Positions 3,027 through 63,988 of a DNA stretch of 64,000 nucleotides are shown piece after piece. The DNA lies in IMG/VR virus record IMGVR_UViG_3300017917_003822, positions 124,001-188,000 of that record. One strand, 5' to 3'. The notes under the pieces were generated by a model, which was not told the DNA's origin, did no database searches, and saw only the letters and a list, made by a program, of their open reading frames with translations. Each line of letters starts with the position of its first letter. Positions within the stretch are counted from its first letter, which is position 1. Position numbers and translations under genes: made by a program. This DNA is from a virus.

Positions 3027-3440
3027 ATGAAAAATATACTAAGTTTTAAAGATTACGAGCCCTCGGAGGAATATAAGACCGAATCGAGGAGATCACTTAA
3101 TCTGGATAGTGTTAGAAGATCTAAAGAGTATAAGAGAATAATAAAACTTGGATTTGAGGAGGAAACTTCGCATCAACAAGAGATAAACAACACCATGAAG
3201 TTTGTAAGATCCAAACATAAGCAGAAGGAGAAGGGACACGATGATGTCTTTTATACTATACATCCGACTGGAACTGTTAGAAGATATAATCCTATAAAAT
3301 CTGAGGATGTTCCTCAAGGTAACGGTAATGACATCAAAAAATTCATAGAACCTTTTGAAAAGCCTAAAGATTATATAAAGGGATTAAATTATTTATGGCA
3401 GTACCTAAAAAGAAAAGAAGCTAAAAAAGATTTCAGATAA
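3027..3440 (+). CDS. Orphan protein with capsid-targeting-like N-terminus
   Basis: 137 residues, not recognised by family. The N-terminus MKNILSFKDYEPSEEY resembles the short peptide shared by several other proteins in this window (for example at 28717 and 63617), with the pattern Met, basic or acidic residue, I-L-x-F/Y. The rest is basic and Lys/Arg-rich with a C-terminal KRKEAKKDFR tail, which would suit a DNA- or capsid-associated internal protein. It follows the tail fibre and has its own late-type promoter directly upstream. The role as an internal virion protein is inference only. Confidence 0.7.
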   Translation: MKNILSFKDYEPSEEYKTESRRSLNLDSVRRSKEYKRIIKLGFEEETSHQQEINNTMKFVRSKHKQKEKGHDDVFYTIHPTGTVRRYNPIKSEDVPQGNGNDIKKFIEPFEKPKDYIKGLNYLWQYLKRKEAKKDFR

Positions 3441-3451
3441 TACAAGAAACT

Positions 3452-3688
3452 ATGAGTAACGATTGTGGATGCGGAGCAGTAAACATCTCCGATTATATTG
3501 AAAGAAAGCATGACAAGGAAATAAGCCTAATAATAAATAAATGGGTAATAGATAATCTTGGAAGGAAGCTTCTTATACAGGAACCTATCTACGATATATA
3601 TAAAGATATCATAGGATACATAACAAAAAACACTGACGGAAACACGGTCAGGATTTTTTCACATAACATAAAAGAAATACTGGATTAA
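3452..3688 (+). CDS. Small orphan protein
   Basis: 78 residues, function unknown. It begins with a Cys-rich stretch, MSNDCGCGAVNIS, followed by a soluble alpha/beta-looking segment. It starts 11 nt after the previous stop and ends 1 nt before the next start, so it is probably co-transcribed with both neighbours. No transmembrane or catalytic motif is seen; the C-x-C pair is too small for a normal zinc ribbon. Confidence 0.65.
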   Translation: MSNDCGCGAVNISDYIERKHDKEISLIINKWVIDNLGRKLLIQEPIYDIYKDIIGYITKNTDGNTVRIFSHNIKEILD

Positions 3689-3689
3689 T

Positions 3690-4139
3690 ATGTTTTACCC
3701 AAAGCTAGAAAATAGATGCCTAGTCTGCATGAAGGACGAAGAGAATGAAATCGAGGAGGCTCTTTCAAATAAACAACCCTCAGAAATTCTTGATGCACTC
3801 ACCGAATGGTTAAATGAAAAATCATATTGTGTTGAGAAAGTGCAATTGGAAAAATATCTGGCAGACAGAGGAATAGTTATGAAGATCGAGGAAGATGATA
3901 TGGGCGGAGGTTCACCTGGTCCGGCTTTGGCCTCTTTGGGTGATGTTAATGGAATGGGTAATCCAACACCTCCTTCGAACGATGGAACTAATGCTGGTTT
4001 CTATGATGCAACGAAGAGTGGATCTGGGGATAGATTTACGACATTAACTGCTGGTACCCCCGCAGCTAAAAATAAGAAATATAAAAACTATAAATCACTT
4101 CTTTCATATGTAGATTTCATAAAAAAGAGAAAAAAATAA
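3690..4139 (+). CDS. Orphan protein with C-terminal tag-like motif
   Basis: 149 residues, unrecognised. A folded-looking N-terminal half (about 1-75, including C-L-V-C-M) is followed by a Gly/Pro/Ser/Asn-rich linker (about 78-130) and the C-terminal sequence KSLLSYVDFIKKRKK. That end is very like RRVLSYSEFLSSN at the C-terminus of the acidic protein at 28352-28678, and like the N-terminal peptides of several other proteins. A strong terminator lies 20 nt downstream, so this ends the first operon. Function as a virion component is inferred. Confidence 0.7.
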   Translation: MFYPKLENRCLVCMKDEENEIEEALSNKQPSEILDALTEWLNEKSYCVEKVQLEKYLADRGIVMKIEEDDMGGGSPGPALASLGDVNGMGNPTPPSNDGTNAGFYDATKSGSGDRFTTLTAGTPAAKNKKYKNYKSLLSYVDFIKKRKK

Positions 4140-4159
4140 TTTTTTTTAGTATAAAAAAA

Positions 4160-4182
4160 GCCTACCTAGAGTAGGCTTTTTT
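4160..4182 (+). terminator. Intrinsic terminator
   Basis: Hairpin GCCTAC-CTAGA-GTAGGC followed by six T, preceded by an A-run. It ends the operon that finishes at 4139. Confidence 0.85.
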
Positions 4183-4284
4183 GTTGACTTTTTGTCGGGT
4201 TGAATATCACCAATTATGACAATTTGTCCTAGTCTATTGTTTGGAATTGAATTTGATATATTTGAATTAAAAAAAATAAAATAT

Positions 4285-4659: not shown

Positions 4660-4663
4660 GAAA

Positions 4664-6553
4664 ATGGCAAAAGTAATTGGAATCGATTTAGGTACTACAA
4701 ACTCATGCGTCTCCGTAATAGAGGGGAATTCTCCGGTTGTTATCGTTAACCAGGAGGGAAAAAGAACAACGCCTAGTGTTGTTTCGTTTAGAGAAGGTGA
4801 AATTAAAATAGGTGATCCTGCAAAAAGACAGGCAGTGACAAATCCCAAAAACACTGTTTATTCTGTTAAGAGGTTCATCGGATCTAATTTCGATGAGATT
4901 AAAAAAGAAGCCAAGAAGATGGCTTATACTGTAAAAGCAGGAAGTGATAAAAAGAAGGTGGTTGTTGAGACCACTGAGAAGGAATATGTTCCTCAAGAGA
5001 TATCAGCTATGGTACTTCAGAATTTAAGAAAGACCGCCGAGGATTATTTGGGTGAGGATGTTAGACAAGCTGTTATTACTGTACCTGCATATTTCAATGA
5101 CAGTCAGAGACAGGCAACCAAGGAGGCTGGAGAAATTGCTGGATTAGAGGTTTTGAGAATTATCAATGAACCCACAGCTGCTGCTTTAGCATACGGTCTA
5201 GATAAGGCAGATAGGGACATGAAGGTTATAGTTTATGATTTGGGCGGTGGTACCTTTGACGTTTCTGTTTTGGAAATTGGATCTGGTGTTTTTGAGGTTC
5301 TGTCAACAAATGGAGATACACATCTGGGTGGGGATAATTTTGATGAGAAAATTATCGATTGGATAGTTCAGGAATTTAAAACCGAATCTGGAGTTGATGC
5401 TTCACAAGATCCGATGGCATATCAAAGAATCAGAGAAGCGGCAGAGAAAGTTAAGGTTGAATTATCGTCCTCTATGGAGTCTGAGATCAATTTACCATAT
5501 TTAAGTGCAGATTCCACTGGACCTAAGCACTTTGTCAAGAAACTTTCCAGAGCACAATTTGAGTCTATGACATCTGATCTGGTTCAAAGAACATTAGAAC
5601 CTTGCAAAAAAGCACTATCTGATGCCGGATTAAAAGCGTCCGATATTGACGAGGTTATTTTAGTTGGTGGATCAACAAGAATACCTAAAGTTCAGGAGGA
5701 AGTTGAAAGATTGTTTGGAAAAAAACCTTCCAAGAATGTTAATCCCGATGAAGTAGTTGCTATTGGTGCTGCTATTCAGGGAGGAGTTTTAACTGGTGAG
5801 GTTAAGGATGTTCTTTTACTTGATGTTACTCCTCTTTCTCTCGGTATAGAAACTATGGGTGGTGTATTTACAAAACTGATCGAATCTAATTCGACCATAC
5901 CAATTAGAAAGAGCCAGGTTTTCTCTACTGCGGTTGATAATCAGCCATCGGTGGAAATCCATGTTCTGCAGGGGGAAAGAGCGATGGCATCTGATAATAG
6001 ATCACTAGGAAGATTTCAGTTAACTGACATTCCGCCAGCTCAAAGAGGAGTTCCGCAAATTGAGGTGACTTTTGATATTGATGCAAATGGAATTATTAGC
6101 GTTTCTGCTACGGATAAGGGAACAGGTAAACAACAGAACATTAAGATAGAATCTGGATCTAAGTTATCTGAGGAAGAAATTGAAAAAATGAAATCAGAAG
6201 CACAAGCTAACGAAGCTTCTGACAGAGAAAGATTAAAGAAAATCCAGATTTTAAACGACTCTGATTCTTTAATTTTTCAAATAGAAAGATCACTAAATGA
6301 TTTTGGTGATAAAGTTACTGAGAGCGATAAGGAGTCCGTTAACAAGATCATCTCTGAATTAAAGAATGCCAGAGAGAGTGAGGACGTTGATCTTATCGAA
6401 TCTAAAATGAAGGAATTGTCGGAGGAGATGTCTAAGGTCTCGGCTTCCGTTTATGCCTCACAAGAACAAAGTAACGAAACACAAGAAAATGAACATGCTC
6501 CGGAACCAGAGGATCACGAGGATATTGAGTTTGAGGAGGTTGAAGAAAAATAA
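4664..6553 (+). CDS. dnaK: Chaperone DnaK (Hsp70), full length
   Basis: 629 residues, close to the bacterial length. The nucleotide-binding domain (about 1-380) has the phosphate-1 loop [13 protein letters not shown] near residue 5, phosphate-2 [16 protein letters not shown] near 190, and the adenosine motif [13 protein letters not shown] near 335. The linker [13 protein letters not shown] leads into the substrate-binding domain and helical lid, and the acidic tail ends in EEVEEK. It folds or refolds clients in the cytoplasm with DnaJ (encoded at 21336) and probably Hsp20 (just upstream). A complete dnaK is rare in phages. Codon use matches neighbouring phage genes, so any acquisition from a host is not recent. 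A terminator follows at 6578. No grpE is seen in this window. Confidence 0.97.
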
Positions 6554-7888: not shown

Positions 7889-8719
7889 GTGGAATTCAAT
7901 ATTAAACATCTAGATAATAATGAGTATTTTCCAAGCAGAACAACGAAGGACACAATCTACCTGCATCACACTGCAGGATCTCATAGACCAGACTGGACGA
8001 TTGATGCTTGGAACAGAGACAGGTCTGCCACAGGTAACAAAGTAAAAATCGCAACATCTTACGTCATTGGTGGAATTAGCACAAGAACTGATAACAAGGA
8101 ATTTGACGGTAAAATATATGAGGCCTTCGACCCAGTTTACTGGGCACACCATCTGGGGGTAAAATCCAAGAACAACACATTCCTGAATCAGAAAAGCATA
8201 GGTATAGAACTATGTAATTATGGTCCTCTGACAAAAACTTCAGATGGGAGGTTTTTTACTTACGTTAAAACGGAAATCCCAAAAAAATATGTAACTAAAT
8301 TGGATGAGCCTTTCAGAGGTCATCTTTACTATCACTCCTACACAAAGGAACAACTAAAATCACTGGAATTTCTATTGATTGACTTATCTGATAGATTTGA
8401 GATAGATGTTACTAAGGGTCTCAAGAGGGAAATAGAAAGATCAGAATTGGTTATGCCATCAGGTCTCACAGTTAGAGAAAAACAGGTTTGGTTAAATAAG
8501 AACGGGTTTACTGACAGAAGAGGTAAGAAATTATCGGAGGATAATGTCTACGGTCCAAAAACGATTGAGGCCGAAAGTAAAATAGGATTTAATCCACTTG
8601 AATTCAACCAGAATGCTGTTGACGGGTATCCGGGGATATGGTCACATACAAATGTAAGAATAGATAAGAGTGACATATTTCCACAACCTGAGTTACTAGA
8701 TCTGCTTAAAAATATTTAA
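7889..8719 (+). CDS. Endolysin: N-acetylmuramoyl-L-alanine amidase
   Basis: 276 residues from a GTG start at 7889. An ATG at 7856 in the same frame is the alternative, but it lies upstream of the GATATATAC box and adds an unlikely hydrophobic leader. The Amidase_2 domain (about 10-165) has TIYLHHTAGSH with the first zinc histidine, YWAHHLGVKS, and SIGIELCNYG, the usual active-site landmarks. A C-terminal part (about 185-245) with LTVREKQVWLNKNGF and YGPKTIEAESKIGF resembles a peptidoglycan-binding repeat. It cuts the amide bond between MurNAc and the stem peptide at lysis. No signal peptide is seen, so a holin would be needed. Confidence 0.85.
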   Translation: MEFNIKHLDNNEYFPSRTTKDTIYLHHTAGSHRPDWTIDAWNRDRSATGNKVKIATSYVIGGISTRTDNKEFDGKIYEAFDPVYWAHHLGVKSKNNTFLNQKSIGIELCNYGPLTKTSDGRFFTYVKTEIPKKYVTKLDEPFRGHLYYHSYTKEQLKSLEFLLIDLSDRFEIDVTKGLKREIERSELVMPSGLTVREKQVWLNKNGFTDRRGKKLSEDNVYGPKTIEAESKIGFNPLEFNQNAVDGYPGIWSHTNVRIDKSDIFPQPELLDLLKNI

Positions 8720-9021
8720 TCTTTCTTTTTGATTGACTTTTCTTTGAAGGATTCCTTAATGTAGTTTGTTATATCAGATCCTGATTTTTTACCCTCACTT
8801 AGAAATTTATTAAAATTCTCGGACTTCCCCTCCTGATCTAAAAAATCGTGGAAATAAGAAGCTTCGAACATTGCATCGTATACTTGTGGCATCGTCGGAT
8901 CGGTTGAGTGATAATTTCTTGATCTGACTCTATTTTCGTACGAATCCCCAGGAACGTCTATGCTTCCGGGTGAATCGATCCATTCATTTACGAAATTGTG
9001 AAATTTTTTTAGATTTTTCAT
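8716..9021 (-). CDS. Orphan protein with capsid-targeting-like N-terminus
   Basis: 101 residues from the ATG at 9021. The frame stays open to 9099, but the extension crosses a late-type promoter box, so the inner start is used. The N-terminus MKNLKKFHNFVNE ends in V-N-E, matching the [LIV]-N-E pattern of the tag shared with the adenylate kinase and the ATP-grasp protein. The rest is hydrophilic with a Lys-rich end (KEKSIKKKD). It is one of only three minus-strand genes and its stop overlaps that of the endolysin by 4 nt. Function unknown; an internal virion protein is a reasonable guess. Confidence 0.65.
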   Translation of the reverse strand: MKNLKKFHNFVNEWIDSPGSIDVPGDSYENRVRSRNYHSTDPTMPQVYDAMFEASYFHDFLDQEGKSENFNKFLSEGKKSGSDITNYIKESFKEKSIKKKD

Positions 9022-9026: not shown

Positions 9027-9036
9027 GTATATATTC
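9027..9036 (-). promoter_or_regulatory. Putative late promoter (GAATATATAC, minus strand)
   Basis: Same box as at 3014 but on the minus strand; it ends 5 nt before the ATG at 9021. Confidence 0.45.
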
Positions 9037-12190: not shown

Positions 12191-14677
12191 ATGCAAGTTG
12201 TAAAAAGAGACGGTTCTAAAGAACCGGTAAGGTTTGAGAAGATTTCTAACAGAATCAGAAAAATGACATATGGTTTAAATGCTGATTATGTTGACGCCAT
12301 GGAGATAGCACAAAAAGTAATTGCTGGTATTTATGACGGAATATCAACCCAGGAATTAGACAATTTAGCTGCAGAAACAGCAGCTTCACTTATTCCTAGA
12401 CACCCCGATTATTCAATTCTTGCTTCAAGAATTGCGGTTTCTAGATTACATAAAACAACAAAGAAAAAATTCTCGGAAACGATCCAAACTTTATATGACT
12501 ACATAGATCCTGAGACGAATCTTCCGGCTGGTTTAATTAATGAAGAAACTTATCAGACGGTAATGAAGCACAAACAAAAATTGGATGGTGCTATCATACA
12601 TGAAAGAGATTTTGAATTTGAATATTTTGGATTTAAAACACTGGAAAAAAGTTACCTATTAAAAACCCACGGTGAGGTCTGTGAAAGTCCTCAGCACATG
12701 TATATGAGAGTTTCAGTTGGTATTTGGGGAGAAGATATCAAGAACGTAATTAAAACTTATGAGCTACTTTCCAATCATATGGCCACTCACGCAACACCAA
12801 CATTATTCAATGCAGGTACTAAAAAACCACAGCTTTCTTCTTGCTTCTTATTGACCGTATCCGATGACTCCATTGCTGGAATTTATAAAACTCTTTCTGA
12901 CGTAGCTATTATTTCACAGAATGCTGGTGGAATAGGTTTAGCTATCCATAATGTCAGAAGTACAGGTTCTTATATCAGAGGAACTAACGGTACCTCAAAC
13001 GGAATTGTACCAATGCTTAAAGTTTTCAACGAAACTGCAAGATATGTAGATCAGGGAGGGGGTAAAAGAAAAGGATCTTTCGCAATTTACTTGGAGCCTT
13101 GGCACTCTGATATTGAGGATTTCTTAGATCTAAGAAAGAATACTGGTAAGGAAGAATTAAGAGCTAGAGATCTTTTCCTAGCATTATGGACTCCTGATCT
13201 TTTCATGAAGAGAGTTAAAGAGGATGGAATCTGGAGTTTATTCTCACCATCTGAAGTTCCTGGTCTTTGGGAAAAATATGGAGATGAATTTGAAAAAGCA
13301 TACACCGAAGCTGAGGAAGCTGGTAAGGCAAGAAAAACCATTAAAGCTAGGGATTTGTGGACAAAGATTATAGAATCACAGATAGAAACAGGAACACCTT
13401 ATATGCTGTATAAGGATGCTGCAAATAAAAAATCAAACCAGAAGAATTTAGGTACCATTAAGAGTTCAAACTTATGTACTGAAATTTTGGAATATACAGA
13501 TAAGGACGAACAAGCAGTTTGTAACTTGGCTTCGATCCCAGTTAACAAGTTCCTAAAATCAACTGATGCTAGAACATCTAAGATTTGCAAAGGAAGATGT
13601 GAGGTTGACCATAATGCTCTTTATGATGTTGCATATCAGATAACATTGAACTTAAATAAGGTTATTGACGTTAACTACTATCCAACTCCTGAGACTAAAA
13701 AATCAAATTTAAGACATAGACCTATTGGTATAGGTATTCAAGGTCTGGCTGATTTGTTTGCAATTATGGGTATTCCTTTTGCATCACCAGAAGCCAAAAG
13801 AATTAACGAGGAAATATTCGAAACTATTTATTTTGCCGCAATGTCAGCCTCAATGTATTTGGCCAAGAGAGACGGTAAATATGAAACTTTCGATGGTTCA
13901 CCATTAAGTCAAGGACAATTCCAATTTAATTTATGGGGATTTGAGGACAAAGACCTTTCTGGAAGATGGGATTGGGACAAATTAAGAAAGGATGTGATGA
14001 AGCACGGAGCTAGAAACTCTTTATTATTAGCTCCTATGCCAACAGCTTCTACAGCTCAGATTATGGGTAACAATGAGGCATTCGAACCTTTCACCTCGAA
14101 CATCTACACTAGAAGAACTCTTAGCGGTGAATTTATATTAGTTAACAAGCACCTAGTTAAGGATTTGATTGCTCTGGATCTTTGGAGCGAAGATATGAAG
14201 AATTTGATCATCTTACATAAAGGATCTGTTCAGAACATACCTCAAATTCCTGAAAATATAAGAGAAACATATAAAACAGTTTGGGAAATAAAGCAGAAAG
14301 ATCTAATTGAGATGTCTGCCGGTAGAGGTAAATTTATTTGTCAATCCCAATCACTAAATTTGTTTATTGAGAATGTTAATTCTGCTAAACTTACTGCTGC
14401 ACACTTCCACTCTTGGGAACTTGGTCTTAAAACGGGAATGTATTATCTAAGAACAAAATCTGCTGTTGATGCTATTGCAGGTTTGGGAATAGACATGGAG
14501 AAAGCTAAGAAAGCTCAGAAACTTGCCGATGAGGGATCTCTGATTCAAGAAAAAAGGGAATCTAAAATAGATCTTGGTATGACTAGCGAAGAACTCAGTA
14601 AAGCTGCAGAAGAAGTTGCATCTGGGATAACATGCAGTCTGGATAACCCCGACGATTGTATAGCATGTGGATCTTAA
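12191..14677 (+). CDS. nrdA: Class I ribonucleotide reductase large subunit
   Basis: 828 residues. The N-terminal ATP-cone ([18 protein letters not shown], about 1-90) gives allosteric activity control. The barrel carries QLSSCFLL (first redox Cys), NLCTEI (the N-x-C-x-E active site near 430), and [18 protein letters not shown]. The C-terminus [14 protein letters not shown] provides the shuttle cysteines re-reduced by thioredoxin or glutaredoxin. It reduces all four NDPs with NrdB. The 110-nt gap after nrdB has a poly-T plus AATCC stretch at 12114-12128, but no well-placed TAnnTTTG, so it is only a possible promoter. Confidence 0.97.
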
Positions 14678-14686
14678 ATATATAGA
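14675..14686 (+). promoter_or_regulatory. Putative late promoter (TAAATATATAGA)
   Basis: ATATATA box about 20 nt before the adenylate kinase ATG, overlapping the nrdA stop. Confidence 0.45.
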
Positions 14687-14699
14687 ATAAAAAACCGAG

Positions 14700-15320
14700 A
14701 TGGAAAATATAGTTAAAAGTTTTAGTGGATTTTTAAATGAAAGAGAATTACCAGACGAACAAGGTGACATCCTAGTTATGCTAGGAGCACCAGGTTCTGG
14801 TAAAGGTACACTTTCCAAAGAACTCCAGGATAAGTATGGAATACATCATATTTCCACCGGAGATCTCATCAGAAAATCTGATGATCCGGAGCTTAAAAAA
14901 ATCATAGACGGTGGTAATTTTTTACCCGATGATATGATGATTAAGATTTTAAGGAAAGAACTTAAAAAAGTGGATGTAACTAAAGGAATAATATTTGATG
15001 GTTTTCCAAGAACTATCAAACAAGCTAAAAGACTTGATTCCATGCTAGGTAAAATGGGTCTTGGTCTTAATCATGCAATCTTTTTGGATCTTCCTGAAGA
15101 AACTGCCAAAAATAGAATCAGAGAAAGAGCTAAGAAGGAGGACAGAAAGGATGACACCAGTGACGAGATCATCAACAAAAGGTTCGATGAATATCACGAG
15201 AAAACATTTCCTCTTTTAGATTTCTACAAGAGAAGCAGAAAACTAATAAAGATTGATGCATCTGAAGGCAAGGAGGGAGTATTAAAATCAGTTTCTAAAA
15301 AACTGGGATTGAAGAAATAG
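14700..15320 (+). CDS. adk: Adenylate kinase with capsid-targeting-like N-terminal peptide
   Basis: 206 residues. The kinase core begins near residue 22 with VMLGAPGSGKGTLS (P-loop), then HHISTGDLIR, IIFDGFPRTIKQA and the lid/core Arg region NRIRERAKKED. The lid is the short type without a zinc site. It interconverts ATP+AMP and 2 ADP, which would help nucleotide supply. Adenylate kinases normally begin a few residues before the P-loop; here about 20 extra residues, MENIVKSFSGFLNE and a short linker, match the tag on other proteins and end in the T4-prohead-protease-like L-N-E. It therefore may be packaged in the head. A late-type promoter lies just upstream, separating it from nrdA. Confidence 0.93.
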   Translation: MENIVKSFSGFLNERELPDEQGDILVMLGAPGSGKGTLSKELQDKYGIHHISTGDLIRKSDDPELKKIIDGGNFLPDDMMIKILRKELKKVDVTKGIIFDGFPRTIKQAKRLDSMLGKMGLGLNHAIFLDLPEETAKNRIRERAKKEDRKDDTSDEIINKRFDEYHEKTFPLLDFYKRSRKLIKIDASEGKEGVLKSVSKKLGLKK

Positions 15321-15337
15321 CTAATAAAACCAAATAA

Positions 15338-15985: not shown

Positions 15986-16012
15986 TACTATAATATCTAA
16001 AACCATAGTTTA

Positions 16013-17308: not shown

Positions 17309-17320
17309 GGATATATAGAG
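17309..17320 (+). promoter_or_regulatory. Putative late promoter (GGATATATAGAG)
   Basis: Box 20 nt before the ATG at 17341. It argues against the upstream in-frame GTG at 17305, which it overlaps. Confidence 0.45.
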
Positions 17321-17340: not shown

Positions 17341-17892
17341 ATGAAGCATCTTTTAGAATACGAGAGTTACTCTCCAGTAAATGAATTTGAGGTTAAGGGT
17401 GGAGTTCCGGTTTATAACGAACCAGAATTTGTTAAGAACCCTAAAATGAAACCTGCTATGATGATAAAAACTCCCGAAATTATCTCGGTTGTTGATGATT
17501 TTATCAAAAAGCAAGAAAATGGTGATATTGAATCAATCGCGGTTGTGGCTGATATACCAACTCAGGGAAAGAGAGTACCTACTTACGTTGCAGATGAATT
17601 GGCAGCAGAGAGAAAAAGAATGGCTGCAAGAAAAGCTGCTATCTACGGAAGTAGAATAGAAAGAGCTGATAGACCTGAGGATGAGGATTACACCGACGAG
17701 ATCAATATTTTCGTAGATTCTGAGTTTGTTGTTAAGGGTGTGATTAACAAATTAGGTAAGGATTACGTGATAGGTATACCTGCTTCACATAAGAAAAAAG
17801 CAGAGGCTAGTAAAGATGCTGAGGAATATTACTCTACCTACATCGAGCCTAACCAGATTTTTGAAATTTATTTTACCCCAAAAAATAAATAA
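17341..17892 (+). CDS. Orphan protein with capsid-targeting-like N-terminus
   Basis: 183 residues from the ATG at 17341. The N-terminus MKHLLEYESYSPVNE ends in V-N-E and belongs to the shared tag group. The centre has a charged helical stretch (DELAAERKRMAARKAAIYG), followed by a beta-rich part (INIFVDSEFVVKGVINKLGKDYVIGIP). No enzyme motif is seen. A terminator follows at 17912. The protein could be an internal head or scaffold-associated component, by analogy only. Confidence 0.65.
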   Translation: MKHLLEYESYSPVNEFEVKGGVPVYNEPEFVKNPKMKPAMMIKTPEIISVVDDFIKKQENGDIESIAVVADIPTQGKRVPTYVADELAAERKRMAARKAAIYGSRIERADRPEDEDYTDEINIFVDSEFVVKGVINKLGKDYVIGIPASHKKKAEASKDAEEYYSTYIEPNQIFEIYFTPKNK

Positions 17893-20771: not shown

Positions 20772-20982
20772 AGAAATAGAGGATTTTGAAAAATCCATTA
20801 ATGGCCCTGAAAATTCAGAGATAAAATACACAATCGATAGGTCGATAGAGGCATCTGTTAGATATGAGTACCTTATCGAGAACTATGGTAAGGAGAAGGT
20901 TGATAGCGTGGTTCCTGATTTTCTTGAATTGTACGATAGTGAAATCTTCTCGGAGATCAAGAAAAAATTAGAGTCTGAGTAA
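20758..20982 (+). CDS. Small orphan protein
   Basis: 74 residues, acidic and apparently all-helical. It overlaps the end of the UV endonuclease gene by 14 nt and ends 2 nt before the next ATG, so it is translationally coupled in this operon. Nothing in it identifies a function. Confidence 0.6.
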   Translation: MKNSKEIEDFEKSINGPENSEIKYTIDRSIEASVRYEYLIENYGKEKVDSVVPDFLELYDSEIFSEIKKKLESE

Positions 20983-26639: not shown

Positions 26640-26651
26640 TGGATATATAGA
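26640..26651 (+). promoter_or_regulatory. Putative late promoter (TGGATATATAGA)
   Basis: Box 25 nt before the ATP-grasp gene, in the only gap of this stretch. Confidence 0.45.
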
Positions 26652-26675: not shown

Positions 26676-28133
26676 ATGTCAGGTAGAAAAATACTTAACT
26701 TTTTCTCTTTTCTAAACGAAGCTAAAAGTGAAACCACAAAGGTTATTGTTCTAACAGGTAATGTTAAGGGTAGTAAAACCTCAAGTTCATTTATGGAGGA
26801 GTGCAAGAAAAGAGGGATTGAATGCCACGTTGTTGATGTAAACGATGCAACATTGGAAAAAGTTTATAATGGGCACCTATTAAAAACTGAGGAGGAACAA
26901 ATATTAATAGAACCAAACTCAACGGTTATAGTTCCTAGAAGAGGAGTATTAGAAAACTCCCACACAAAGCAAATACTCCTTTCTTTGGAGGAAGCTAGAT
27001 ATTTCACAGTAAACACTCTGGAATCTATGGAGATGTGTGAAAATAAGTTCATTACATCTCAAATAATGGAAGAACATAATTTACCCGTACCTAGATATTC
27101 CTTAGTACCAAATGAGGATTTCTTGGATAAGGCTCTTGAAGCTGTTGGAGGTAAATTCCCTGTTGTGATGAAGTTACTTTCGGGAACCCAAGGTATCGGT
27201 GTTTCTATTGTTGATTCCTATGCATCACTGAAATCTGTTTATCAAACAATCAGAAAACTTGATGACACCAATGAGATATTGATACAGGAAAAAATAGATT
27301 CCAAATCTGATCTTAGAATACAGGTTATTGTTAAGAAATTCGACCCATTAAATGCAGGTAAAGATAACTGTATAATTCTCGGATCTATGAAAAGAGAGGC
27401 GGTGGAGAAAGATTTTAGGACTAATTATTCATTAGGTGGTAAAGTTTCTAAATTTGACATTCCGGAGGAATTGGTTGATATAGCTTGCAAAGCAGCAAAT
27501 GCAGTTGGATGTCATTGGTGTGGTGTTGATATTATGATAGATGAAAAAACACAAAAACCCTATATATTGGAGGTCAATTCTTCACCAGGGACCGAGGGTA
27601 TATCCAAAGCTATAGGTAAACCTATTGTTGATGATGTTCTTGATTACATTCTGGATAAAGAAAATTGGGCATTTTCAACACTTGAAGTTGGATATTTAGA
27701 AAATGTCAATATACCAGGAATTGGTTATATGGTAGCTAAATTTGATACTGGGAATGGATCTAAATCTTGCACACTCCATGCTGATGAGGTTGAGGAGAAG
27801 GATGACAAACTTATTTGGAAAGTTGGTGACAAAAAATTCGTAAATGATATCGTTGGATATTCTGATGCTGAAATCGGTAAGGATATTCACACTAGACCTA
27901 TGATAGAGATGGACGTTGTTATCAACGGAGTTACTATACCAAAGGTAAAAATTTCGCCGACCGACAGAACTGATAAAAGTACACCATTCTTAGCAAATAG
28001 AGCTTTTATGAGAAAGGCTGGTTTAATAGTTAATCCACACAAGGCATTTGTTATTAGTGATGAGCCAGAAACTAAATACGAAGTTGGTAAAGCTAAAGGA
28101 GAACCTCATGCAGGAATAGAATTTGAAAAATAA
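26676..28133 (+). CDS. RimK-like ATP-grasp ligase fused to aspartic protease, with tag
   Basis: 485 residues in three parts. The N-terminus MSGRKILNFFSFLNE fits the shared capsid-targeting-like peptide, ending in L-N-E. An ATP-grasp ligase (about 20-325) follows, with MKLLSGTQGIGVSIVDS, ILIQEKIDSKSDLRIQVI, GAxWCGVDIMIDE-like GCHWCGVDIMI and YILEVNSSPGTEGISKA, as in RimK-type peptide ligases that add amino acids such as glutamate to proteins. The last part (about 340-485) is an RimB/DUF785-like retropepsin domain with the active-site AKFDTGNGSKSC near 355. In bacteria RimK and such proteases are often neighbours; a fusion in a phage is unusual. Target protein unknown. Confidence 0.85.
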   Translation: MSGRKILNFFSFLNEAKSETTKVIVLTGNVKGSKTSSSFMEECKKRGIECHVVDVNDATLEKVYNGHLLKTEEEQILIEPNSTVIVPRRGVLENSHTKQILLSLEEARYFTVNTLESMEMCENKFITSQIMEEHNLPVPRYSLVPNEDFLDKALEAVGGKFPVVMKLLSGTQGIGVSIVDSYASLKSVYQTIRKLDDTNEILIQEKIDSKSDLRIQVIVKKFDPLNAGKDNCIILGSMKREAVEKDFRTNYSLGGKVSKFDIPEELVDIACKAANAVGCHWCGVDIMIDEKTQKPYILEVNSSPGTEGISKAIGKPIVDDVLDYILDKENWAFSTLEVGYLENVNIPGIGYMVAKFDTGNGSKSCTLHADEVEEKDDKLIWKVGDKKFVNDIVGYSDAEIGKDIHTRPMIEMDVVINGVTIPKVKISPTDRTDKSTPFLANRAFMRKAGLIVNPHKAFVISDEPETKYEVGKAKGEPHAGIEFEK

Positions 28134-28142: not shown

Positions 28143-28355
28143 ATGGAAAATTTAAAACCGTTCAAACAAGTAAATGAATCTGAGCAGTCAGAAAAGACTG
28201 AAAAAATACAGGTGCTTCTATCTAAGGAAGATTTAACTGACTTAGGTAGAAAAATTTCTAAGGAAGCTCTTGCTAAGGGAGAAGCACCAGTTTCAGTTTC
28301 TCATTATGTGAGAAAGCTTATCAGAAAAAATCTTGGTAAAACTACTACAGATTAA
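28143..28355 (+). CDS. Ribbon-helix-helix-like protein with tag-like N-terminus
   Basis: 70 residues. The N-terminus MENLKPFKQVNE ends in V-N-E like the shared peptide. Residues about 20-65 (KIQVLLSKEDLTDLGRKISKEA...SVSHYVRKLIRKNLG) fit one strand and two helices of a ribbon-helix-helix DNA-binding protein. It could be a repressor or a DNA-associated virion protein. It follows the ATP-grasp gene by 9 nt and its stop overlaps the stop of the convergent minus-strand gene by 4 nt. Confidence 0.6.
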   Translation: MENLKPFKQVNESEQSEKTEKIQVLLSKEDLTDLGRKISKEALAKGEAPVSVSHYVRKLIRKNLGKTTTD

Positions 28356-28702: not shown

Positions 28703-28716
28703 GAAATATATATCAC
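28703..28716. promoter_or_regulatory. Putative bidirectional late promoter
   Basis: GAAATATATATCAC reads as an ATATATA box on both strands. It abuts the plus-strand ATG at 28717 and lies 25 nt before the minus-strand ATG at 28678. Confidence 0.45.
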
Positions 28717-29037
28717 ATGAGAAAAATATTAGAATTCGATGATTATCTGGAGGATGATCTCGATCTTAATGACTTTGAAAAATCCCAAATAAGAACCTGG
28801 ATAGGAAAATATGAGAGGTATTTCAATTTTCATGACAGCGGAAATTTCATAGATTCAATAGATCAAATAACAAAAGATGCTGTCCAGCAGCTTGGTATAG
28901 ACAAAAGTAAAACTGATGCCGTCCAGGATTATCTGGAGAGTTTATATGATCTTTCGGATGGGCTTTCCGTTATTATGGCACCCGGACCAGAAATAATTCA
29001 AACTGGAATCGATCAGGTTCAAAGATTCCAATATTAA
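28717..29037 (+). CDS. Orphan protein with capsid-targeting-like N-terminus
   Basis: 106 residues. The N-terminus MRKILEFDDYLEDDLD resembles MKNILSFKDY at 3027 and the other tags, although L-E-D replaces the usual x-N-E. The rest looks helical and acidic (KDAVQQLGIDKSKTDAVQDYLESLYDLSDG). No motif is known. The start codon directly follows the promoter box, so the transcript may be leaderless. Confidence 0.65.
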   Translation: MRKILEFDDYLEDDLDLNDFEKSQIRTWIGKYERYFNFHDSGNFIDSIDQITKDAVQQLGIDKSKTDAVQDYLESLYDLSDGLSVIMAPGPEIIQTGIDQVQRFQY

Positions 29038-33522: not shown

Positions 33523-33525
33523 CTG

Positions 33526-36542: not shown

Positions 36543-36725
36543 ATGGAACAGAATCTTTTAGACTTGGTAATAAAAGTAGTCAAAATAACTCCCAATGATT
36601 CAGAATTGGGGAGCAGAATAAGAAGAATTATGATGATCACAGATAACGGCGAGAAAGAAGTTGCTGCTGAGGAGATTTTAGAAAATCTTAATATCAATAT
36701 TAACGGGAATCAAAATGGCAAATGA
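36543..36725 (+). CDS. Small orphan protein
   Basis: 60 residues, helical, with an Asn-rich end. It starts 1 nt after the TS-like gene and overlaps the following gene by 11 nt. No recognisable motif. Confidence 0.5.
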   Translation: MEQNLLDLVIKVVKITPNDSELGSRIRRIMMITDNGEKEVAAEEILENLNININGNQNGK

Positions 36726-37002
36726 ATTTAAAATATCTACCGAGTTTAAGAGCATCAATGAACCATCGGATAGTCTAAAGACACACTACTCCAACTTATA
36801 TAAAAGAAACCAGGATAAGTTTATTAGGAGATCTAAGTTGGAGATTTCTCATCTGGGTGAGGAGTTCGAATACGAAGGTAAGACTTTAAAGTTAATAGGG
36901 TCAATTGACTCCAATTTGATGATTGTTGTAGATGTTAATGAAAATAAATATTATAGAATTCATTCCGATATCGTTACTGACGGAATATTAAATAAGAGTT
37001 AA
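36715..37002 (+). CDS. Orphan protein with possible tag
   Basis: 95 residues. The N-terminus MANEFKISTEFKSINE ends in I-N-E and may be a looser member of the tagged group. The second half is strand-rich (FEYEGKTLKLIGSIDSNLMIVVDVNENKYYRIH), resembling a small beta-barrel. Overlaps the previous gene by 11 nt. Function unknown. Confidence 0.55.
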   Translation: MANEFKISTEFKSINEPSDSLKTHYSNLYKRNQDKFIRRSKLEISHLGEEFEYEGKTLKLIGSIDSNLMIVVDVNENKYYRIHSDIVTDGILNKS

Positions 37003-47669: not shown

Positions 47670-47673
47670 AACT

Positions 47674-47687
47674 AAATATATAGAGGA
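47674..47687 (+). promoter_or_regulatory. Putative late promoter (TAAATATATAGAGG)
   Basis: Box 16 nt before the nuclease ATG at 47703. Confidence 0.45.
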
Positions 47688-47702
47688 AAATATAACTATT
47701 AA

Positions 47703-48343: not shown

Positions 48344-48805
48344 ATGGAAAACAAAATAGCTTCATTTGAAGAGTTTAAAAAAAGAGCCGCAAACGTTACT
48401 GAAGAAAATGCAGAGATGGCTCAGGATAATCATCAACACGAGGGGAACGACCACGAAGGTCATCAACACTATATGTTCTTTCAAAATCTAGCATCAATTA
48501 AGCATCACATTGAGGAGATTCTAAAAATGAATCCAGATCAGATAGATGCTTTATTAAAAGATGGACACGATTGGGCATCTGATCATATTGCAACTTCCAA
48601 AGATGATATTCAAGAAGTTGCTGAGTGGCTTAGAAATGAAACTGAAGGAGCACACGATAATCACGATGAAGAGGAGGAGGTTGAAACTTCGGTAGTTATC
48701 GAAACACCAGAGGGTGGAGAGGAAGAAGAGAGCGACGAAGAGGAGGAAGACGATGATGAAGAGGAAGAGACTGAGGAAGAGGAATCAGAGGAGGAAGAAG
48801 GGTAA
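48344..48805 (+). CDS. Acidic His-rich protein with tag-like N-terminus
   Basis: 153 residues. MENKIASFEEFKKRAAN resembles the shared N-terminal peptide. A His-rich stretch (DNHQHEGNDHEGHQHYMF, about 29-47) could bind metal. A helical middle (LASIKHHIEEILKMNPDQIDALLKDG) leads to a tail of almost only Glu and Asp (about 120-153). Acidic, tagged proteins such as T4 gp67 belong to the prohead core, so that role is a fair guess. It has its own promoter and a strong terminator at 48837. Confidence 0.65.
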   Translation: MENKIASFEEFKKRAANVTEENAEMAQDNHQHEGNDHEGHQHYMFFQNLASIKHHIEEILKMNPDQIDALLKDGHDWASDHIATSKDDIQEVAEWLRNETEGAHDNHDEEEEVETSVVIETPEGGEEEESDEEEEDDDEEEETEEEESEEEEG

Positions 48806-53115: not shown

Positions 53116-54319
53116 ACAATACCAAGCACTTCTTCAAGACATTCTTGATAATGGGGTAACAAAACAAGACCGTACAGGAACGGGAACAATCTCAGTATTT
53201 GGAAGACAAATCAGACATAAAATGTCAGAAGGGTTTCCACTTCTTACAACTAAGAAAATGCCATTCAAAACCATCGTAACAGAACTTCTTTGGTTCTTAC
53301 GAGGTGATACAAACATCAAATACTTGGTTGATAATAATTGCCATATTTGGGATGGAGATGCTTATAAGAATTATTGCAAATCATTTGAAAATCAATCAAT
53401 TTTGGATAAGTATTCGTTTGATACAGACCCAATCACAATAGAGATGTTTGTTGAGAAAATCAAAACAAATAATGAGTTTGCTAAAAAGTGGGGTGAATTA
53501 GGTCCAATTTACGGTAAGCAATGGAGAAGTTGGGTAAGAGGTGTTGATTATGATGTTGATTATGAAAATGGAATACAGGATGAAATAGACCAAATAACAA
53601 ACTTAATCAACGACCTTAAAACAAATCCAGACTCAAGACGATTAATGGTTAATGCTTGGAATGTTGGAGAATTAGACCAAATGGTTCTTCCACCTTGTCA
53701 TTATGGATTTCAAGTTTATACAAGAGAGTTGAGTGATAGTGAAAGAGCAAAATTATACGAACAGAAAACAAATGTAGACACTTCTTTCTTTCCTGTTCTT
53801 AGAGAAACATTAGATTTTCACAACATTCCAACCAGAGCAATCTCTTTAATGTGGAATCAACGTTCAGTAGATACATTCTTAGGTTTACCATTTAATATTG
53901 CATCGTATGGGCTATTGCTTGAAATTATTGCAAAGGAAGTAAATATGGTTCCTGATGAATTGATTGGTAATTTAGGTGATGTTCATTTATATTCAAATCA
54001 TATTGAACAAGCAAAAGAGCAAATTGGTCGAGAGCTTACATGGGAAGAAAAAATCCAATGGGTAATGAAGAACACTGATGTCGAGCTTGAGAACCTGTAC
54101 ATAACTGAAGCAGCTGCTGCTTTAGAAGCAACAACTAGGTGGCCATACCCTCTACCAACATTAAAAGTCAGTTGGTATATCGATAATTGGAATACTCCAG
54201 AAGCTAAAGAAGTTAGGAAAAACGAGTTTGACGCTTATATAAGACAAATGAGGACTAGTGATTTCATTCTTGAAAATTATAAATCACACCCAGCAATTAA
54301 AGCACCTTTAAGCAATTAA
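53099..54319 (+). CDS. thyA: Thymidylate synthase
   Basis: 406 residues, longer than the usual 264 by internal inserts. Family motifs: GVTKQDRTGTGTISVFG, GFPLLTTKKMPFKTIVTELLWFLRGDTNI, GPIYGKQWRSW, SRRLMVNAWN, LPPCHYGFQVY with catalytic Cys200, NQRSVDTFLGLPFNIASYGLL and DVHLYSNHIEQ. It methylates dUMP to dTMP using methylenetetrahydrofolate. Codon use differs from neighbours (CGT and CGA for Arg rather than mostly AGA), which suggests fairly recent acquisition from a bacterial host. It overlaps the preceding gene by 17 nt. Confidence 0.97.
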   Translation: MNNLDKQYQALLQDILDNGVTKQDRTGTGTISVFGRQIRHKMSEGFPLLTTKKMPFKTIVTELLWFLRGDTNIKYLVDNNCHIWDGDAYKNYCKSFENQSILDKYSFDTDPITIEMFVEKIKTNNEFAKKWGELGPIYGKQWRSWVRGVDYDVDYENGIQDEIDQITNLINDLKTNPDSRRLMVNAWNVGELDQMVLPPCHYGFQVYTRELSDSERAKLYEQKTNVDTSFFPVLRETLDFHNIPTRAISLMWNQRSVDTFLGLPFNIASYGLLLEIIAKEVNMVPDELIGNLGDVHLYSNHIEQAKEQIGRELTWEEKIQWVMKNTDVELENLYITEAAAALEATTRWPYPLPTLKVSWYIDNWNTPEAKEVRKNEFDAYIRQMRTSDFILENYKSHPAIKAPLSN

Positions 54320-54332: not shown

Positions 54333-55229
54333 ATGGAAACATTAAACATCGAAAGAGATACAATATCTCTTGAATTCAGAGATGATGAATTCTTAAACAC
54401 AGCATTTAAAATAAAAATGCAAAGCCCTCATGGAACAATATCCTACTTGGTACCGACTTTGGATGATGCTGGAAATATGTCATTAAATGTTCAGCATAGA
54501 ATGGTCGAGGCATCCGGATATGAAACATCTTCAACCACATCAAAGGAATCTTTAGCTGATCTTTCGAGATTTAATATAGATGCGGAAGGCGAGATCATCA
54601 AAGCGATAGATAACGAGTCACTCATCACATCTCAAAGAAGACTAAAATCAATCTATTACGATCTCGGAAAAAAATCCAGGATGGGCTCGTATGGAAAGTG
54701 GAAATCATTCCTAAACAAGCATCTGGGTATCGATTTCCCGCTGTATGTTTCTGACGATGAAGATATTTGCAAGAAGATATTTTTACTGAGTAATCTGATT
54801 GCAGCTGGATCCAGAAGAGGTCCCGCTAATTTCATAATAGTTTCTGGTGGTATGTGGGCCAGGATAGCTCTGGACCCCTCATGTGTAATCTACGAGAATA
54901 ACAACGATTCTGTCCCTTTTATTCGTCCGGTTGGCAATATTGCAAATAAAATTAACGTCTTTGTAGATTCGTCAACATCTTTCAACAATGGTCTAATCAT
55001 AATGGGAATTAAGACTGAATCCCCATACCCTGGAGTTTTATTTGGCCAGTATTCCAGAGAGGTTTTAAAAATTGACAGCTACGATCCATTTAGCTTTTTA
55101 CCCAATGTTGAATATAAGCTGATTGAAAGATATGCTTTAAGAGATTTTGGTGACCCCGAAAAATGCTATTATACAAACGAAATATTAAATGAAAAGAAAC
55201 CTCTCTGGAGAAGATTGATCGGTGCTTAA
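54333..55229 (+). CDS. Possible capsid-like protein (gp23-like C-terminal region)
   Basis: 298 residues. The segment RRGPANFIIVSGGMWARIALDPSCVIYEN and the later INVFVDSSTSFNNGLIIMGIKT and GVLFGQYSREVLKIDSYDPFSFLPNVEYKLIERYALRDFG recall the end of T4-type major capsid proteins, where R-G-x-G-N-F-I-I-V-S and Y-V-D precede a similar stretch. No prohead cleavage motif is obvious. It may be a capsid vertex or minor capsid paralogue. The match is weak and the main head genes are not in this window, so this call is tentative. Confidence 0.4.
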   Translation: METLNIERDTISLEFRDDEFLNTAFKIKMQSPHGTISYLVPTLDDAGNMSLNVQHRMVEASGYETSSTTSKESLADLSRFNIDAEGEIIKAIDNESLITSQRRLKSIYYDLGKKSRMGSYGKWKSFLNKHLGIDFPLYVSDDEDICKKIFLLSNLIAAGSRRGPANFIIVSGGMWARIALDPSCVIYENNNDSVPFIRPVGNIANKINVFVDSSTSFNNGLIIMGIKTESPYPGVLFGQYSREVLKIDSYDPFSFLPNVEYKLIERYALRDFGDPEKCYYTNEILNEKKPLWRRLIGA

Positions 55230-59874: not shown

Positions 59875-59878
59875 GAAT

Positions 59879-61765: not shown

Positions 61766-62328
61766 TGAAGGTGATATTTCTAGATAATGATGGAGTAATT
61801 TGTCTCCATAATAATTGGGGTGGGCGTTCAAAAAAATGGAAAAAGTTTAAAAAACTTAATCCTGATGCAATCAACGATAAATCCGCACCAGTTGATGTTA
61901 GATTTGATGATTTCGACAAAAAGGCTATTAAGATATTAAATAACATACTCGAAGAAACCGGTGCTGAAATCGTAGTAAGCTCAGATTGGAAACTCCACGC
62001 AAGCCTGGAAGAGCTTGGTGAATATTACGAAGCACAGGGGATCATCAAAAAACCGATTGCGATAACACCAAATCTTGGGGATTTTGATCCGGGCGCTAAT
62101 GATCTATTCATGTGGAAAAGATGGCTGGAAAAAAAGAGAATCCTGGAGATTCAGGAGTACCTGGAAAGAAATCCTGATATAACTCACTGGGTTGCTGTGG
62201 ATGATTTAAACATGAGCCCAGCATCAAACGGGGGATATGGTCTTGAGAATTTTGTACTGACACCCAGATCAACCGAGGGCATAAAACAACTAGGAATAAA
62301 AGAATCAATAATTAAACACTTAAATTAA
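61765..62328 (+). CDS. HAD-superfamily phosphatase-like protein, paralogue of 59147
   Basis: 187 residues. MKVIFLDNDGVICL gives D-x-D, VVSSDWKLHASLEELGEYYEAQG aligns with the paralogue at 59147, and HWVAVDDLNM is the acidic metal motif. Both appear in the same region with six small genes between, suggesting a duplication that brackets the accessory cluster. Substrate unknown. Confidence 0.8.
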   Translation: MKVIFLDNDGVICLHNNWGGRSKKWKKFKKLNPDAINDKSAPVDVRFDDFDKKAIKILNNILEETGAEIVVSSDWKLHASLEELGEYYEAQGIIKKPIAITPNLGDFDPGANDLFMWKRWLEKKRILEIQEYLERNPDITHWVAVDDLNMSPASNGGYGLENFVLTPRSTEGIKQLGIKESIIKHLN

Positions 62329-62334
62329 AGAATT

Positions 62335-63090
62335 ATGTTTACATTTTTTAAAAAATTATTTAGAAAGAGATCTTTAGCAGAAAGGGAACAAGCACACCTT
62401 TTTGGTAATTCTTCTACCTCCGATGGGTTGGATAGATCTTTCCTTTTTGATTTTAAAAACTATCAATCAGGTTACAGAGATAATAGCAATATTACGGTGG
62501 GCACTTTTCTAATGAGCGGCAGCACTACAGGTGGCGATAACGATAGTAACGACGTGAAGAAAGAGACCAAGAGAAAAATAGAGGTTAAACCAATAGATGT
62601 TCTGAATGAGTTGGAAACTATTCCGACCCCTTGGAATCTGTCCAATCTGGATGACAAGATCTCTATACTGGAATATAAAAGGGATCTAATTACACAGAAG
62701 TACTCAAGAAGAGAGGTTGAAGCGATGATAGAGCGTCTGCAGAACAGAAAAAAATGGCATAAATTTAAAGACTTCTTCACAGGATTCCAAAACACAACCG
62801 ACGAAAAGATCGAGGATCTGTTGGACAAATACGATCTTGTAATGAAAACATCGGATCTTTTTGTACCAGAGTTTCCTGACGAGGCCATAAATATCATGAA
62901 GAGCTACAGTGACAATATGATGAAGCTTTGTAAAAAGAAACCAGTTTTCTATGTCATAGCAGAACCAGATAAATTCAAAAAAGCCTGGGAGAAAAGAGAT
63001 CCAATCTTGCTGGTGCAAAGTCCATTTGGGTTCTATTGGCAGATACTTGGTGCATGGGATAAGGAAATGATACTTTTGGGTGAACTATAA
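62335..63090 (+). CDS. Orphan phage protein
   Basis: 251 residues. A Lys-rich start (MFTFFKKLFRKRSLAEREQ), a Gly/Asn/Asp linker near 60-75, then a helical domain (NLDDKISILEYKRDLITQKYSRREVEAMIERLQNRKKW) and a C-terminal domain with PVFYVIAEPDKFKKAW...DPILLVQSPFGFYWQILGAWDKEM. Phage proteins with this C-terminal shape are common and unknown. Ends with the first base of the next gene. Confidence 0.55.
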   Translation: MFTFFKKLFRKRSLAEREQAHLFGNSSTSDGLDRSFLFDFKNYQSGYRDNSNITVGTFLMSGSTTGGDNDSNDVKKETKRKIEVKPIDVLNELETIPTPWNLSNLDDKISILEYKRDLITQKYSRREVEAMIERLQNRKKWHKFKDFFTGFQNTTDEKIEDLLDKYDLVMKTSDLFVPEFPDEAINIMKSYSDNMMKLCKKKPVFYVIAEPDKFKKAWEKRDPILLVQSPFGFYWQILGAWDKEMILLGEL

Positions 63091-63596
63091 TGAAGAATCA
63101 ATTTGATGATGCATTCTACCCTCTAATATGGGCACACGTACAACAATATCAAAGGTGCGTCAGTGAATACGGGGGGAAGGAAAGAATAACAAAAAAGGTC
63201 AAGGAGTCATTAAACTCGTGTGTTCAGAAATGGTCAGATTTACCAGCAACAATGGCTTCCTCCAGCGTTATTGAATTCTTTAATTCAAAATTTCCTCATC
63301 TCGATCCTGCCAAGATAACGTGGCACCAGAAATACCTTGTTGGCAGAGATGATAAAAAGAGAGGGATGATAGTGTGGGAACACACAACCCCATTAAATAT
63401 ACTTCTCAAGGAACTGATAACAAAGAAAAATCAGAGGGAGATAAATGAATGTATGAATTCATATTCGGGGGTTTGTTTAATTACCAGGGAGGAGGATGAT
63501 AGGTTAAATGCTAGTGGATTTAGATGTGTAAGGCCTGGAGGCTGGGAAAAATGCTACAGTGATTGTGGGATTGAAGTCATCAAGTTGGATATATAA
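63090..63596 (+). CDS. Orphan phage protein
   Basis: 168 residues. PLIWAHVQQYQRCVSEYGGKERIT near the start and a late VKESLNSCVQKWSDLP. Contains six Cys. No recognised family. Stops 20 nt before the last gene. Confidence 0.55.
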   Translation: MKNQFDDAFYPLIWAHVQQYQRCVSEYGGKERITKKVKESLNSCVQKWSDLPATMASSSVIEFFNSKFPHLDPAKITWHQKYLVGRDDKKRGMIVWEHTTPLNILLKELITKKNQREINECMNSYSGVCLITREEDDRLNASGFRCVRPGGWEKCYSDCGIEVIKLDI

Positions 63597-63598
63597 TG
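63587..63598 (+). promoter_or_regulatory. Putative late promoter (GGATATATAATG)
   Basis: Box overlapping the stop codon of the previous gene and ending 18 nt before the ATG at 63617. Confidence 0.45.
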
Positions 63599-63616
63599 TA
63601 AATAAAAGATCATAAG

Positions 63617-63988
63617 ATGGAACACATTTTACCATACGAAGCAATCAACGAAGGTGCAGCAGCACTCCCAGCGATGCCTTCTTTTCTCAAATCAGCTGGA
63701 GCTAAACCTACATATGTTCAATACGGAGGTCCGAGAAAAACAAATCAACCACCAAATGCCTGGGAACTAAGGGTACCAGCACCATCCGGGGTTAGCAAGG
63801 AAGAATGGGTAATTACTTTCTTTCCGGACGGATCTTTTAACACAGGGGCAGGATCACAAAAGAATTTTTTAAGAAGTAGCGGTGAATGGAAAGCTGATGC
63901 ATCATCGGATTTTATTTTCGGAACTAAAGCTATCAAGGGGGTTTCTATGAAATTCAACTCGTATATGAGATTGACTCCACTAAATTAA
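63617..63988 (+). CDS. Orphan protein with capsid-targeting-like N-terminus
   Basis: 123 residues. The start MEHILPYEAINEGAAALPAM ends its tag in I-N-E followed by an Ala/Gly-rich stretch, as expected after a prohead-protease cut. The rest is strand-rich (WELRVPAPSGVSKEEWVITFFPDGSFNT). It is a member of the tagged group with late-type promoter. Function unknown; internal virion protein is inferred. Confidence 0.65.
   Translation: MEHILPYEAINEGAAALPAMPSFLKSAGAKPTYVQYGGPRKTNQPPNAWELRVPAPSGVSKEEWVITFFPDGSFNTGAGSQKNFLRSSGEWKADASSDFIFGTKAIKGVSMKFNSYMRLTPLN

Follow-up and report, generated by a model that had tools for sequence, protein, structure and literature searches.

N-terminal peptides on unrelated proteins

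The window analysed here is a stretch of 64,000 nucleotides (positions 124001-188000) from a 270,629-base IMG/VR virus record (G000), and its subject is a short N-terminal tag of the form hydrophobic-xx-[FY]-xx-[FYW]-spacer-[ILV]-x-Glu, carried by proteins otherwise unrelated to one another. The original prediction had listed ten such peptides and read them as a signal that sends enzymes into the virion, comparable to the capsid-targeting sequences (CTS) that the gp21 protease removes from internal proteins (IP) of phage T4. All ten occur in the window as written; seven were retained as true tags, two are uncertain and one was rejected (Table 1). Genes were called with a simple unpublished script, which found 319 in the whole record and misses genes (159 were called in S-PM2 against 270 annotated features, and 152 in MaF61 against 195). 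Peptides were scored with a small position-specific model, for which the relatives G001, G004 and G007 alone supplied the training set, and read at thresholds of 4 and 8; residue 1 may not serve in it as the first hydrophobic residue, so that the T4 MKT form is excluded by design.

The adenylate kinase is tagged in all three relatives as well. Its Pfam ADK match begins at residue 27, and solved kinases in the PDB align from its residues 21-26 on in the 60 listed of 99 rows, many of these starting at their own residues 2-4; the tag is therefore an extension of the kinase. The second recognisable enzyme had been called an ATP-grasp/protease, of which the first half stands as a RimK-like ATP-grasp part (RimK Pfam, 8e-34) and the second is weak, the Zn_protease match lying below the cut-off (E 0.07). 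No match to this protein at E 0.001 was found in eight named phages, in a search that had no positive control.

The peptide of the 101-residue protein starts at an ATG within a longer open reading frame (ORF), and the orthologs in G001 and G004, whose tags score 18.8 and 15.5, begin at the same ATG. A Pfam search with the 183-residue protein gave nothing over the cut-off. Two short peptides, at 28143 and 63617, fall under the model threshold because their core is shorter. The former was kept because of its orthologs, two of which carry variants of the tag; the G007 ortholog is a natural tagless case that starts about where the tag of the others ends. The latter has no ortholog in G001, G004 or G007 and was kept only because of its NE end and its promoter-like site.

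Table 1. Coordinates of peptides, promoter-like sites and other features (window numbering unless stated; scores are those of the tag model)
Feature	Position	Strand	Gene or protein	Remarks
Tag MENIVKSFSGFLNE	14700..14741	+	adenylate kinase, ORF 14700-15320	score 14.8
Tag MSGRKILNFFSFLNE	26676..26720	+	RimK-like ATP-grasp, ORF 26676-28133	score 15.9; three tagged orthologs
Tag MKNLKKFHNFVNE	8983..9021	-	101-residue protein, ORF 8716-9021	
Tag MKHLLEYESYSPVNE	17341..17385	+	183-residue protein, ORF 17341-17892	score 7.2; orthologs 16.5, 14.7
Short tag MENLKPFKQVNE	28143..28178	+	70-residue protein, ORF 28143-28355	score -0.3; directly behind ATP-grasp gene
Tag MENKIASFEEFKKRAANVTE	48344..48403	+	153-residue protein, ORF 48344-48805	score 12.2; two tagged orthologs
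Probable short tag MEHILPYEAINE	63617..63652	+	123-residue protein, ORF 63617-63988	score -4.3
Uncertain, aromatic core MKNILSFKDY	3027..3056	+	ORF 3027-3440	score 10.6; orthologs 1.7, -1.4, 7.6; no clear cut site
Uncertain, aromatic core MRKILEFDDYLED	28717..28755	+	ORF 28717-29037	score 10.3; orthologs 9.9, 14.2, 7.7; no clear cut site
Rejected as tag, MANEFKISTEFKSINE	36715..36762	+		score -1.8; orthologs -14.4, -4.9, -12.8; no promoter-like site
Late-promoter-like site AATATATAC	3015..3023	+	ahead of 3027 ORF	
Late-promoter-like site AATATATAC	9027..9035	-	ahead of 101-residue protein gene	
Late-promoter-like site AATATATAG	14677..14685	+	ahead of adenylate kinase gene	
Late-promoter-like site GATATATAG	17310..17318	+		
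Late-promoter-like site GATATATAG	26642..26650	+	ahead of ATP-grasp gene	
Late-promoter-like site AATATATAT	28705..28713	+	ahead of 28717 ORF	
Late-promoter-like site GATATATAA	48315..48323	+		
Late-promoter-like site GATATATAA	63588..63596	+	upstream of 63617 ORF	
Prohead protease	record 46011-47960		649 residues	outside window
Gp23-family protein, second	54333-55229	+		PF07068, 7.9e-9
ORF ahead of thymidylate synthase	52474-53115	+		
Thymidylate synthase	53099-54319	+		
HSP70 (DnaK-like), phage-encoded	4664-6553	+		
DnaJ, phage-encoded	21336-22379	+		
Transfer-messenger RNA gene	33052-33523	+		tag peptide EVEYAVAA

Enrichment at N-termini and conservation among relatives

Across the whole record, 19 of 319 proteins had the pattern [ILVM]..[FY]..[FYWVI].{0,12}NE within their first 24 residues; it was present in only 9 of 2687 internal windows, and shuffled sequences gave 1.4 on average (maximum 8). 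The trained model placed 37 of the 319 proteins, about one in nine, above 4 (shuffled 0.9; internal-Met control 2/1041) and 26 above 8 (shuffled 0.1; internal-Met control 0/1041), extending the tag over the rest of the genome to more proteins than first reported. Chance or composition as the source of the tags is ruled out by the shuffles and internal controls. Two of the 37, g044 and g128 (20758-20982, in the window, score 5.2), look false as tags by their orthologs, which score 0.1 or less in the case of g128; both remain within the count. Above 4, the training relatives gave 33/282, 81/535 and 28/256 (internal Met 5/1075, 5/1790 and 4/848), and LR756500, outside the training, gave 38 of 514 called genes against 7 of 1310 internal Met in 400 kb. 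PTm1 (3/284, internal 7/842), PAU (6/282, internal 4/959), T4 (1/250, internal 1/791), pT24 (2/277, internal 0/1153) and MaF61 (0/152, internal 5/930) were at or near chance with the same model, and the label was not seen among the listed ORFs of one 13.9-kb stretch of Lak-A1 (TAG read as Gln). The sequences of PAU, PTm1, LR756500, pT24, MaF61, P-SSM2, S-PM2 and KVP40 were mostly abutting 20-kb pieces, in which joint-spanning genes are missed; for LR756500 (462 kb) they covered 400 kb, and for MaF61 (168 kb) 160 kb.

The T4-residue pattern [FY]..[FYW][ILVM].E was found at 10 of the 319 N-termini, compared with 20 hits among 3375 internal windows (p 1.3e-4); other tags of this record have a spacer between the aromatic part and the [ILV]xE part. 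The pattern was also significant in G001 (8/282, p 0.003), G004 (21/535, p 3e-10) and LR756500 (21/514, p 3e-12), nominally so in P-SSM2 (5/274, p 0.004) and KVP40 (4/339, p 0.03), and not in S-PM2 (1/159, p 0.26), PAU, PTm1, pT24 or MaF61.

Tagging was largely shared with the relatives: tagged orthologs were found for 22 of 25 tagged against 6 of 168 untagged proteins in G001, for 22/27 against 7/173 in G004 and for 10/15 against 4/118 in G007, a comparison that is partly circular as these genomes trained the model. Near the capsid gene, where up to 75 viral contigs were counted (three of them in the model training), orthologs were tagged in 48/48 (g055), 62/63 (g050), 49/58 (g045) and 48/63 (g049) cases, and in none of the 32-75 members of each of ten families lying among or next to these (g040, g041, g043, g044, g046, g048, g052, g053, g054 and g057); g042 (36/56), g056 (26/47), g051 (13/34), g058 (6/29) and g047 (3/61) were intermediate. 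In 13 families, selected because their site is clear, tags differ in sequence and length between orthologs, and the glutamate at the predicted P1 position is retained in 32 of 33 ortholog pairs; identity across these families is 0.37-0.46 in bins -20 to -3 and 0.52-0.59 past the cut point. Elsewhere in the record, two three-gene runs (256125-257406 and 253149-255220) have similar starts (MEKEFxPYEQAL..., and ...[IV]LPT...).

Prohead protease, capsid protein and promoter-like motif

The gp21-type protease that the original prediction expected in the complete genome is present, beside a gp23-type capsid protein with a predicted cut site like that of the tags. It is over the cut-off of PF03420 (Peptidase S77, T4 gp21; 29.2 bits against a curated 27), as the one match to that family at E 0.001 in the record, and it gave 4.3e-37 with phrog_207, head maturation protease. 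Its C-terminal half carries 13 YSEYLAE-like copies of Y-x-x-Y-[LVI]-x-E with a period of 14 residues, and such a repeat tail, of 10-15 copies, was found in 60 of 60 protease orthologs of at least 450 residues. The annotation of PTm1 includes a 'prohead core scaffolding protein and protease'.

The adjoining capsid protein (PF07068, 2.1e-42) has a predicted propeptide ending in HSLNE|S, and HSLNES is identical in 75 of 75 capsid homologs, drawn from 80 loci, the closest of 177. Tags and capsid propeptide alike end in [ILV]-x-E, often NE, and thus in neither the A-x-E nor the S/A/G-x-E type of cut site. Among 84 tags from four genomes (score above 6, NE in residues 8-30), the residue following NE was S in 27, A in 11 and G in 9, against 8%, 4% and 6%, respectively, at internal NE (n=1028). 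The second, shorter Gp23-family protein is encoded far from the head cluster, beside the thymidylate synthase gene, and is perhaps a vertex protein. The thymidylate synthase and the ORF ahead of it share nearly identical first 20 residues (MEDLDKKYQSLLQDVLNNGV in the ORF and MNNLDKQYQALLQDILDNGV in the enzyme), which suggests that this ORF is a partial duplication.

The word GATATATA occurs at 48 sites in the record, 42 of which sit 8-80 nt ahead of starts on the coding strand. It was discovered upstream of tagged genes, so that its link to them in this record (15/37 tagged and 27/282 untagged genes; opposite-strand control 1/37 and 4/282) is not blind, and the relatives serve as the test: it precedes 16/33 tagged against 22/249 other genes in G001, 13/28 against 26/228 in G007, and 35/81 against 36/454 in G004. 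Ten of the 27 untagged genes were scanned; five match virion families, namely those of sheath, portal, head closure, tail fibre and protease, and five match no named family. We infer that GATATATA is likely a late-promoter word of this clade. The T4-style word TATAAATA, which as a control sat before starts at 21 of 32 sites in T4, was rejected as a motif of this phage (7/37 sites before starts, 1/37 tagged genes). The looser RATATATA lies within 80 nt of eight of the ten reported ORFs (four times as GATATATA), the exceptions being 28143 and the rejected 36715, and within that distance of none of eight window genes picked by us from those that Pfam names as chaperones or in DNA metabolism: HSP70, Fpg, ribonucleotide reductase, gyrase-B-like and gyrase-A-like proteins, DnaJ, thymidylate synthase and RNase HII.

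Proposed capsid-targeting propeptides and alternative readings

The original reading as a T4-like virion-targeting tag is supported by the protease, the predicted capsid cut site, the columns of the T4 CTS and the promoter-like motif. We consider it highly probable that the tags are T4-type capsid-targeting propeptides, much multiplied in a clade of huge phages whose hosts are probably Bacteroidota. The sequence itself displays the tag and how it is conserved, as well as the protease, a capsid-protein site that matches the tags, and the shared promoter-like motif. Late in infection, some 30-40 proteins would be made with an N-terminal label of 12-30 residues, whose aromatic-rich part [ILV]xx[FY]xx[FYW] would dock on the prohead core, and the gp21/S77-type protease would cleave [ILV]-x-E behind its Glu, frequently as N-E|S/A/G. 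The protein so packaged and freed would remain in the head and presumably be ejected into the host along with the DNA. Docking on the core followed by cleavage is proposed because the conserved columns of the tag fall on those residues that have a function in the T4 CTS.

The pattern in its strict form, taken from this phage and applied to T4, matched 3 of 250 proteins and none of 1581 internal windows. Two of the three are what we take to be IPII and IPIII, and the third is gp61.1 by annotation; the protein that we take to be IPI fits the core only. Both systems place a short N-terminal peptide with aromatics three apart and an aliphatic-x-Glu end on unrelated proteins (IPI, IPII and IPIII in T4, cut by gp21), and both have a gp21-type protease and a gp23-type capsid protein. 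They differ in that T4 has a handful of tagged proteins and this clade about 30-80 per genome by the model, enzymes among them; in that a spacer of 0-10 residues separates aromatic core and cut site in this phage; and in that its protease is fused to a repeat tail and its promoter-like word is GATATATA rather than TATAAATA. According to a review of work on the T4 head (PMC9026906), IP propeptides have 10-19 residues, 10 residues of IPIII are enough for incorporation, mutations of the CTS affect targeting mainly at residues 4 and 7 and processing at residues 8 and 10, cleavage frees the mature fragment from the core, and CTS-like sequences are known in T4-related phages.

Few of the labelled proteins could be named by profile: the adenylate kinase, the RimK-like ATP-grasp protein, a nucleotidyltransferase-like protein (g045, just over the cut-off) and g233 and g310 with transglycosylase SLT domains. 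A phosphoribosyltransferase match of g308 was weak and below the cut-off, and most of the others gave no match over the cut-off in profile scans. The labelled g049-g051 beside the capsid gene more probably belong to the core or the scaffold.

The best-surviving alternative, which we regard as unlikely but compatible with capsid targeting, is that the label is mainly a core-assembly or protease-substrate element, the tagged proteins building or filling the core and being degraded or kept inside with no delivery to the host. By eye, g049-g051 look coiled-coil, and the 13 repeats of the protease, with their 14-residue period and their presence at 10-15 copies in every one of the 60 orthologs, fit such a role; the tagged enzymes (adenylate kinase, ATP-grasp and transglycosylase-domain proteins), however, are unlikely to be mere filler, and the first ~20 residues are not needed for a complete adenylate kinase. 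A much less probable reading has the label target another place, such as the membrane or a replication compartment, with the Glu end coincidental. A short amphipathic-looking N-terminus could indeed bind membranes, but the tag ends agree with the capsid-protein cut site and its next residue, the promoter-like motif is common to tagged and virion genes, and the tag columns coincide with those of the T4 CTS. That a 5' cassette of promoter and first codons was copied before many genes by recombination, with no role at the protein level, is very improbable, for although motif and tag often occur together, tag sequence and length vary with [FY]xx[FYW] and Glu constant, and untagged virion genes have the motif upstream as well.

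Several observations weigh against capsid-targeting propeptides. The phage is uncultured and known here from its genome alone, and the related cultured phages PTm1, pT24 and MaF61 have no such set by the trained model. In G007 (3/256, p 0.29) and in T4 itself (4/250, p 0.07), the T4-residue pattern falls short of significance. Six model hits (g110, g139, g241, g307, g308 and g317) have no clear [ILV]xE behind the core, and two more, g044 and g128, are contradicted by their own orthologs. At the place of NE|S the capsid protein of LR756500 reads HELYENAY. Extra [ILVM]NE sites are only weakly depleted in mature tagged proteins (35 observed, 36.3 expected; 326 and 253.6 in other proteins). About half of the tagged genes lack an individual site (GATATATA is present for 15/37, RATATATA for 22/37), and the untagged window genes g119, g138, g145 and g151, with no known virion role, also have GATATATA.

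Two other systems bear comparison. The DarB protein of phage P1 likewise has an N-terminal signal that loads it into the head and can carry a reporter, the first 30 residues sufficing and the first 9 not; unlike the tags of this phage, the Dar N-termini gave no consensus (PMC9024508). The giant phages SPN3US (of Salmonella) and phiKZ resemble the phage studied here in that head proteins are cut behind Glu by the prohead protease and the propeptides are proposed as targeting; they differ in that several propeptides exceed 100 residues (one has 20) and in their cut sites, A-x-E in SPN3US and S/A/G-x-E in phiKZ against [ILV]-x-E here. In SPN3US, eight of about 50 head proteins are processed (PMC5694885). 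The claim that systematic tagged cargo was undescribed outside T4-like coliphages was therefore too strong, given the P1 CTS (PMC9024508) and the propeptides proposed in SPN3US (PMC5694885).

By inspection we found a further set, with a different consensus and a possible L-[YF]-E cut, in Sphingomonas phage PAU, where 21 of 282 proteins fit M-x(1-4)-[ILV]xx[LIV][YF]E against 2 of 1068 internal Met. Of these, 18 begin MK[TSG], mostly as MK[TSG][IL]xxL[YF]E, and 13 are encoded at 100-121 kb, close to the genes for protease and capsid; the set includes genes with the annotations 'scaffolding' and 'internal capsid protein'. The set was not found in the available portions of the PAU literature, among them part of PMC5646251, where the N-terminally sequenced mature capsid protein is stated to comprise 520 of 585 residues. 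Cleavage behind LME64 would leave 521, one residue off the published figure.

DNA matches to window positions 12191-16000 in a phage collection came from 10 records, of Tenacibaculum, Cellulophaga and uncultured phages, and the capsid protein matched 34 records, the best being LR756500 (462 kb) and Lak phages, with 23 of the 34 from phages of Prevotella, Tenacibaculum, Chryseobacterium or Flavobacterium. Because the DNA and capsid-protein matches are mainly to phages of such hosts, the host group is likely Bacteroidota. No earlier report of such labels in Bacteroidota or huge phages was found in open-access titles and abstract openings, and two jumbo-phage overviews gave no hit when looked up for 'capsid targeting' (PMC7824862) and for 'targeting sequence' (PMC13282480), respectively. 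Compared with known CTS, the system is new in its many more labels, its varied spacer, its labelled enzymes and its occurrence in another phage lineage.

Somewhat more speculatively, the label may mimic the core. Its [FY]xx[FYW][ILV]xE unit would imitate the YSEYLAE repeats, of 14 residues each, in the protease-scaffold fusion, and any protein could then be incorporated in the manner of a further scaffold repeat and freed by the same cut. If such mimicry holds, the ejected proteome of huge phages would be readable from sequence, at 30-80 proteins per genome including enzymes. If capsid targeting is right, the cargo of huge uncultured phages would be predictable from their genomes, with as many as 81 of 535 proteins for one relative, yielding a list of early-acting proteins whose function is unknown. 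It would also provide a natural, sequence-readable packaging code, probably of Bacteroidota phages, like that which loads foreign proteins into T4 heads.

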